From Nitrospiria bacterium (lineage in GTDB: Bacteria; Nitrospirota; Nitrospiria; JACQBZ01), in NCBI GenBank assembly GCA_919901335.1, contig CAKKOZ010000099.1, positions 1 through 38,358 of the forward strand: a stretch of 38,358 nt of DNA, read 5' to 3'. Below, one piece after another: positions 3,681 to 4,775 of the stretch. The notes beneath the pieces are model-generated. The model was not told where the DNA came from and made no database searches. It saw only the letters and a program-made list of their open reading frames with translations. Both the position numbers and the translations under genes were made by a program. Position 1 is the stretch's first letter; the number at the start of each line of letters is the position of its first letter.

Positions 3681-4247
3681 ATGGATACGGTGAAATTCCC
3701 AAAGGTAATTCTGTTGACCTTGATCGGAATCCTCTTGGTGCTGTTGGTTTGGGTCTTATCGGTTGGGATCGAGCGCCATGCCGTTTTGCCTTCCTCAAGA
3801 GGACTGATCGGCAAAGCGGATATCGAAATGGACCGGTTCTCTCTAAAACAGATCCGTAATGGTTTAGTGGAATGGAATATCAAAGCCGATCGGGCGGAAC
3901 TGTTTGAAGAACGACACGAGGTTTCTCTGAGTGCCCTGCAGGCAACCTTGCGGACGGCCGAAGGGCTCCGCGTGAGTTTTTCAGGAGACCGGGGTCTTTT
4001 CAATACCGGAACGCGTGACTTCGGAATCAAACAGAACGACGGCGATTTGGATGTATCCATGAATAACGGCTACACCATCCAAGCCCCCTCCTTGACCTGG
4101 AAGGACCGGCAACGGGAAATCGTATCGGAACAACCGATCCGGATCATCGGTCAAGGACTTCGGATTCGCGGCGATCACCTGATTGTAAAACCAGAAAATC
4201 AGCAATTGACGGTCAGTGGAGATGTCCATGTTACGACGGAGCCTTAG
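3681..4247 (+). CDS. lptC: LPS export ABC transporter periplasmic protein LptC
   Basis: N-terminal membrane anchor, LptC-like beta region; directly upstream of lptA/lptB. Confidence 0.8.
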   Translation: MDTVKFPKVILLTLIGILLVLLVWVLSVGIERHAVLPSSRGLIGKADIEMDRFSLKQIRNGLVEWNIKADRAELFEERHEVSLSALQATLRTAEGLRVSFSGDRGLFNTGTRDFGIKQNDGDLDVSMNNGYTIQAPSLTWKDRQREIVSEQPIRIIGQGLRIRGDHLIVKPENQQLTVSGDVHVTTEP

Positions 4248-4775
4248 TGGCATCCTGCTGGCCGTGGGTGTTTTTTTTTAAATTCCTCACCTCTTTATTC
4301 AACGGAGACGACTCCGCACGCCCAACCGCTTTCCATCAGCTCAAAAGCCATGACGGTAAGAAACCTTGAACAGCAGGCCATTTTTGAGGGTGATGTGGTG
4401 ATGAAGAAAGAGGGTTTGACCATCACGTCAGACCATGCCAAGGTGACGTTTGCCTCCATAGAGGCTCCGATGGAAGATAAAAAAAAGCCGCCCGCCGGGC
4501 TGTTTTCCCCGCAATCCCAGTTCGCGGATAATGAGATAACACTCATTCACGCGACCGGGAATGTTGTTCTGCGGCAAGGTGATCGGCGGGTTCATTCAAA
4601 AGAGGCTTTGTATTATCAAAAAGAAGAGAAAGTTGTCCTGCTGGGTGAGCCGGTGGCGTTGGAGAAAGACTATTGGGTGACGGGCACGAAGATGACAATT
4701 TTTTTGCGCGAGAACCGGAGTATCATTGAAGGCAGCAGAATGATCATTCACCCGAAAGATCAGGCGCCCGAATAG
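4228..4775 (+). pseudogene. lptA: LptA-like LPS transport protein, apparent frameshift at T9 tract (4271-4279)
   Basis: ATG at 4228 opens MLRRSLSGILLAVGVFF* and ends at TAA 4279-4281; a one-base backward shift joins it to the ORF 4350-4775 (QQAIFEGDVVMKKEGLTITSDHAKV...). May be functional (slippage) or a sequence error. Confidence 0.75.

Follow-up and report, generated by a model that had tools for sequence, protein, structure and literature searches.

How the LptA protein can be produced from a gene whose reading frame closes within the signal peptide is the question raised by the lptC-lptA-lptB locus described here. LptA is an outer-membrane assembly protein that forms the periplasmic bridge for lipopolysaccharide transport, and it is normally essential. 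The window, namely the entire 38,358-nucleotide stretch of DNA that was analyzed, corresponds to contig C99 of G000, a draft genome of 1.68 Mb in 151 contigs, and its GC content is 55%. The relevant features are as follows.

3681-4247, + strand: lptC, starting at ATG 3681 (alternative GTG 3660); PF06835 LptC, E = 2.5e-8
4218-4221, + strand: Shine-Dalgarno-like GGAG, located 6 nt upstream of ATG 4228 (from the sequence)
4228-4281, + strand: lptA frame 0, start of the signal peptide, translating as MLRRSLSGILLAVGVFF and then TAA
4271-4279, + strand: T9 tract, putatively slippery; run length exactly 9, invariant in 7/7 family genomes
4279-4281, + strand: TAA stop met without a slip; the same TAA occurs in G002, G003, G004, and G006
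4278-4775, + strand: LptA body in the -1 frame, LNSSPLYSTETTPHAQPLSISSKAMTV..., with its stop at 4773-4775; PF03968
4803-5528, + strand: lptB, ABC-transporter ATPase and next gene of the lptCAB cluster; PF00005, E = 2.3e-38

Reading frames at the lptC-lptA junction

The open reading frame flanked by lptC and lptB completes an lptC-lptA-lptB cluster. Its body frame is open from 4278/4281 to 4775 and matches PF03968 (LptD_N) with an E-value of 1.4e-12 and a score of 48.3 bits, against a cut-off of 20.4. The original prediction held that the frame from ATG 4228 reads into a TAA at 4279-4281 at a T9 tract, with the full LptA sequence reached by a one-base change of frame. This description of the frames is exact, and the LptA body is open only in the -1 frame. 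ATG 4228 overlaps the 3' end of lptC, and at the Shine-Dalgarno position a purine-rich motif (GGGGA, GGAGA, or GAGGA) is retained among the relatives. Note that two in-frame ATGs, six bases apart, are present at 4222-4230 (ATG TCC ATG); most relatives keep both, and in G005 the second is GTG. A search with PF03968 for a second copy of lptA in the genome yielded none, and the gene is thus single copy; the remaining matches are open reading frames of ∼750 amino acids, which is the size of LptD.

The N-terminal stretch of LptA encoded in frame 0 has hydrophobic equivalents in all seven relatives. As judged by eye and by hydropathy, the putative export signal would be present only across the frame shift. 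In the five species with a broken frame, the hydrophobic core likewise continues only across the shift, as for example in MLRPSLKIILIAGVFF followed by LNGLPLFAAEA. The downstream reading frame had been described as lacking both a signal peptide of its own and a clear Shine-Dalgarno sequence, and this description stands: no ATG, GTG, or TTG start was found in the body frame upstream of ATG 4350, which is already beyond the signal peptide.

The lptC stop, TAG 4245-4247, shares its frame with the LptA body, and this arrangement, together with the presence of ATG 4350, would allow LptA to be made with no frameshift at all, either by read-through of the lptC stop or by re-initiation. Against read-through, however, the stretch from lptC to the tract is unconserved and hydrophilic in the body frame (WHPAGRGCFF, NHFDRRCFF, and NRPERRCFF), and the lptC stops vary between TAG and TAA. 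Against re-initiation, ATG 4350 encodes a methionine conserved in LptA and lacks a clear Shine-Dalgarno sequence, and starting there would omit the export signal. Both routes are hardly credible.

Conservation of the T9 tract within the family

A comparison with relatives, suggested in the original prediction, was made among seven genomes assigned to one GTDB family, all of which are drafts and at least four of which are groundwater co-assembly MAGs from one naming series. A T9 tract occupies the same lptA codons in all seven, and none has T10 at the site. The frame is broken in five, namely G000 and G002 (genus g1), G003 (g2), and G004 and G006 (g3). In these five the T9 is followed by AA(A/G), such that frame 0 closes at TAA and the remainder of LptA is encoded in the -1 frame. 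In G001 and G005, small insertions after the tract (+4 and +1, respectively) restore the DNA frame. In the phylogenetic tree, G001 falls beside G000/G002 and G005 beside G004/G006, with weak support within the genera. Given this placement, broken and intact frames coexist within genera while the tract length is constant at nine. The frame break is no one-off; it is kept across species of three genera. No such T run was found in the LptA genes that were compared from other families of the class.

The lptA body is under purifying selection, with dN/dS values of 0.06-0.22 for all pairs of relatives with finite dS, and the synonymous differences are near saturation (pS of 0.40-0.80). In the lptA body and lptB together, none of the nine invariant phenylalanine columns keeps one codon in all seven genomes, and only one of the 17 invariant valine columns has a T-ending codon throughout. 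At the lptA tract, GTT TTT TTT T is present in 7/7 genomes. In-frame T9 runs also occur in some family members at the FFL/FFF motifs of bamA (L216-L222) and ispE (L224-L230). These control runs persist as T9 in 3/7 genomes each and are T6-T8 in 4/7 each. With the turnover of phenylalanine and valine codons and the erosion in bamA and ispE as background, the conservation of GTT TTT TTT T is far from expectation, which points to a run kept beyond the needs of the protein. Only seven A/T runs of at least nine exist in the whole 1.68 Mb genome of G000, and because such runs are rare and the same codons carry one in 7/7 genomes, the lptA tract is not attributable to chance.

A census of the 95 A/T runs of at least nine in the seven genomes, built from pattern matches and sequence stretches, revealed recurrent frame breaks with a clear gene on both sides only in lptA and in a gene for a DUF374 acyltransferase. 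Other frame-broken runs, such as KKK-stop gene ends (L065 and L069), proved ordinary. The possibility that the T run belongs to an intrinsic terminator was also considered and rejected: the weak 5-pair stem that precedes the tract in G000 is close to chance (3 found versus 2.2 expected), and the relatives share no stem ahead of the tract.

Homopolymers are prone to error, every one of the seven genomes is a draft, and a T10 would be in frame. The true sequence might accordingly be T10 and lptA an ordinary single-frame gene, which was one option of the original prediction. Such an error, however, would be needed in five species at once, all of which display the identical T9. Moreover, runs of T10 and T11 have been assembled at other places in the family genomes, in-frame T9/A9 runs in long open reading frames are called correctly (four of the six other A/T runs of at least nine in G000 are uninterrupted inside such frames), and G001 and G005 carry the T9 in frame. 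A homopolymer within the coding sequence of an envelope gene also matches the classical design of contingency loci, and phase variation, in which the tract would mutate between on and off lengths within a population, had been a further option. Yet the tract length is constant in seven species, and every frame-broken consensus would represent the off state, which is unexpected for an essential single-copy gene. Since the relatives keep T9, since T10 and T11 runs do appear at other places in the assemblies, and since the bamA and ispE tracts erode, an assembly error is quite improbable and phase variation highly so. Slippage-dependent expression, the remaining option, is singled out by the relatives, with the same T9 and the same break in five species of three genera.

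The DUF374 run and the nature of the proposed slip

From their sequences, most species of the family apparently can make LptA only via a one-base slip of either RNA polymerase or the ribosome. We propose, with a probability of roughly 70%, that lptA expression depends on slippage at the conserved T9 within the signal-peptide code, most likely through the transcriptional addition of one U. Translation would begin at ATG 4228, inside the 3' end of lptC, and an unslipped mRNA would give rise only to a 17-residue peptide. Addition of one U by RNA polymerase (U10) would restore the frame, as would the loss of two. On the U10 mRNA, the ribosome would read ...VGVFF-LNSSPLYSTETT..., thereby producing a full-length LptA whose signal peptide is complete. 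We infer both that slippage occurs and that RNA polymerase, rather than the ribosome, is responsible for it. Slippage may in addition cap the output of LptA relative to that of LptC and LptB, which would explain why the length of the tract, but not the frame, is conserved. In many bacterial genomes, selection against slippage sets in at a run length of nine (PMC1088944), and among the transcription indels in A/T runs the insertion of one base is the most frequent (PMC5574713). Counting against the proposal, the family sample comprises only seven genomes, at least four of them from the one MAG series, and in the transcriptomes of E. coli and Buchnera no frame was found to be restored by a transcription indel (PMC5574713).

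A further point against the transcriptional reading is the U UUU UUU at 4272-4278 within the T9, the phase of which is correct for a -1 ribosomal shift. Programmed -1 frameshifting on this heptamer, beside the UAA, would lead to the same protein from an unedited U9 mRNA. In each of the five species with a broken frame, the heptamer has the right phase and precedes a stop, and the lptA and DUF374 sites both need the -1 direction. Folding of the region downstream of the tract in the five species, however, did not reveal a conserved stimulatory structure (z-scores of -2.1 to +0.5). A hairpin lies 23 nt downstream in G000 and G002, whereas the folds in G003, G004, and G006 differ.

The DUF374 gene bears further on the choice between polymerase and ribosome. 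The following sites are involved.

L035:1538-1547 (G000:C88:12437-12446): DUF374 A-run frameshift site, from the run census and PF04028
L040, L067, L082, L092, L112, L134-L150, L156-L215, and L231-L246: orthologues of the DUF374 site

In this PF04028 acyltransferase gene, an A9-A11 tract is accompanied by the same -1/+1A shift in ∼65 loci of the class. The upstream portion, ...FGASKKK..., finds its continuation, ...TWDGFLIPYPFSRG..., solely in the -1 frame. Several of the loci are in single-contig genomes, and a further family within the phylum shares the break (L231, L237, L238, and L246). One member of the class, L151, is in frame and has no run. In L159 (G173), which has A10, the downstream part lies in the opposite (+1) frame, unlike in all others; this shift could be real, with slippage working both ways, or it could be a one-base error.

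Where the break exists, the run is never shorter than nine, and it is written as TCA AAA AAA AA[C/G], TCT AAA AAA AAA, or CGC AAA AAA AAA. The serine codon is TCA whenever the third lysine codon is replaced by AAC or AAG, and the run remains at least nine; TCA accounts for 9% of the serine codons in the DUF374 loci. Because the run is held at nine or more through these compensating flanking codons, although a ribosomal heptamer needs only seven, the pattern favors RNA-polymerase slippage. On the basis of this argument, the lack of a conserved RNA structure, and the invariance in tract length, transcriptional slippage is the favored reading at lptA as well, and a ribosomal shift there is a less likely but real alternative.

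Known systems and implications

Frame-restoring slippage is already known. In tssM of Citrobacter rodentium (A11), the DNA frame stops after the A run and the full protein is recovered through extra bases that RNA polymerase inserts (PMC4256274). The broken frame after a homopolymer and the proposed rescue are alike at lptA, but in tssM slippage adds a C-terminal extension and both length forms are needed, whereas the T run of lptA is near the start and the unslipped product would be 17 residues long. In Blochmannia and Buchnera, frameshifts at poly(A/T) runs are conserved between species, as at lptA, and are rescued by slippage (PMC3017870, PMC5009743). Those genomes, however, are reduced, AT-rich (about 27-30% GC in Blochmannia), and full of runs, as opposed to the 55% GC of the window and the seven runs of at least nine in G000. 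The dnaX gene of Thermus thermophilus is, like lptA, a cellular gene with a nine-base run, an A9 used for slippage (PMC1088944). Its DNA frame is intact and slippage leads to a truncated second product, whereas lptA is proposed to need slippage for any protein. For prfB, the gene for RF2, the frameshift is +1 and autoregulatory. It is a housekeeping gene with an early in-frame stop that must be bypassed (PMC12421855). It resembles lptA in that respect and differs in being ribosomal and without a homopolymer. A search of the open-access literature found no relevant report linking lptA or DUF374 with frameshifting or slippage; the gene affected, its location of the break in a signal peptide, and how deeply the arrangement is conserved seem to be new.

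More tentatively, the A9/T9 runs of the Nitrospirota may represent built-in RNA-polymerase slippage switches in envelope genes, with lptA affected in one family and the DUF374 acyltransferase in much of the phylum. The fraction of slipped transcripts, and not the promoter, would then set the amounts of LptA, its export signal included, and of the acyltransferase, with tract length being selected while the DNA frame drifts. If the proposal is true, a normally essential gene in bacteria of ordinary base composition has been expressed via a copying slip since before three genera split, and the DUF374 site would be among the most widely conserved chromosomal slippage sites. As its A9 occurs in single-contig genomes, the site lends itself to direct tests with cultures and public RNA data. 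Annotation pipelines would label such genes as pseudogenes or overlook their starts.
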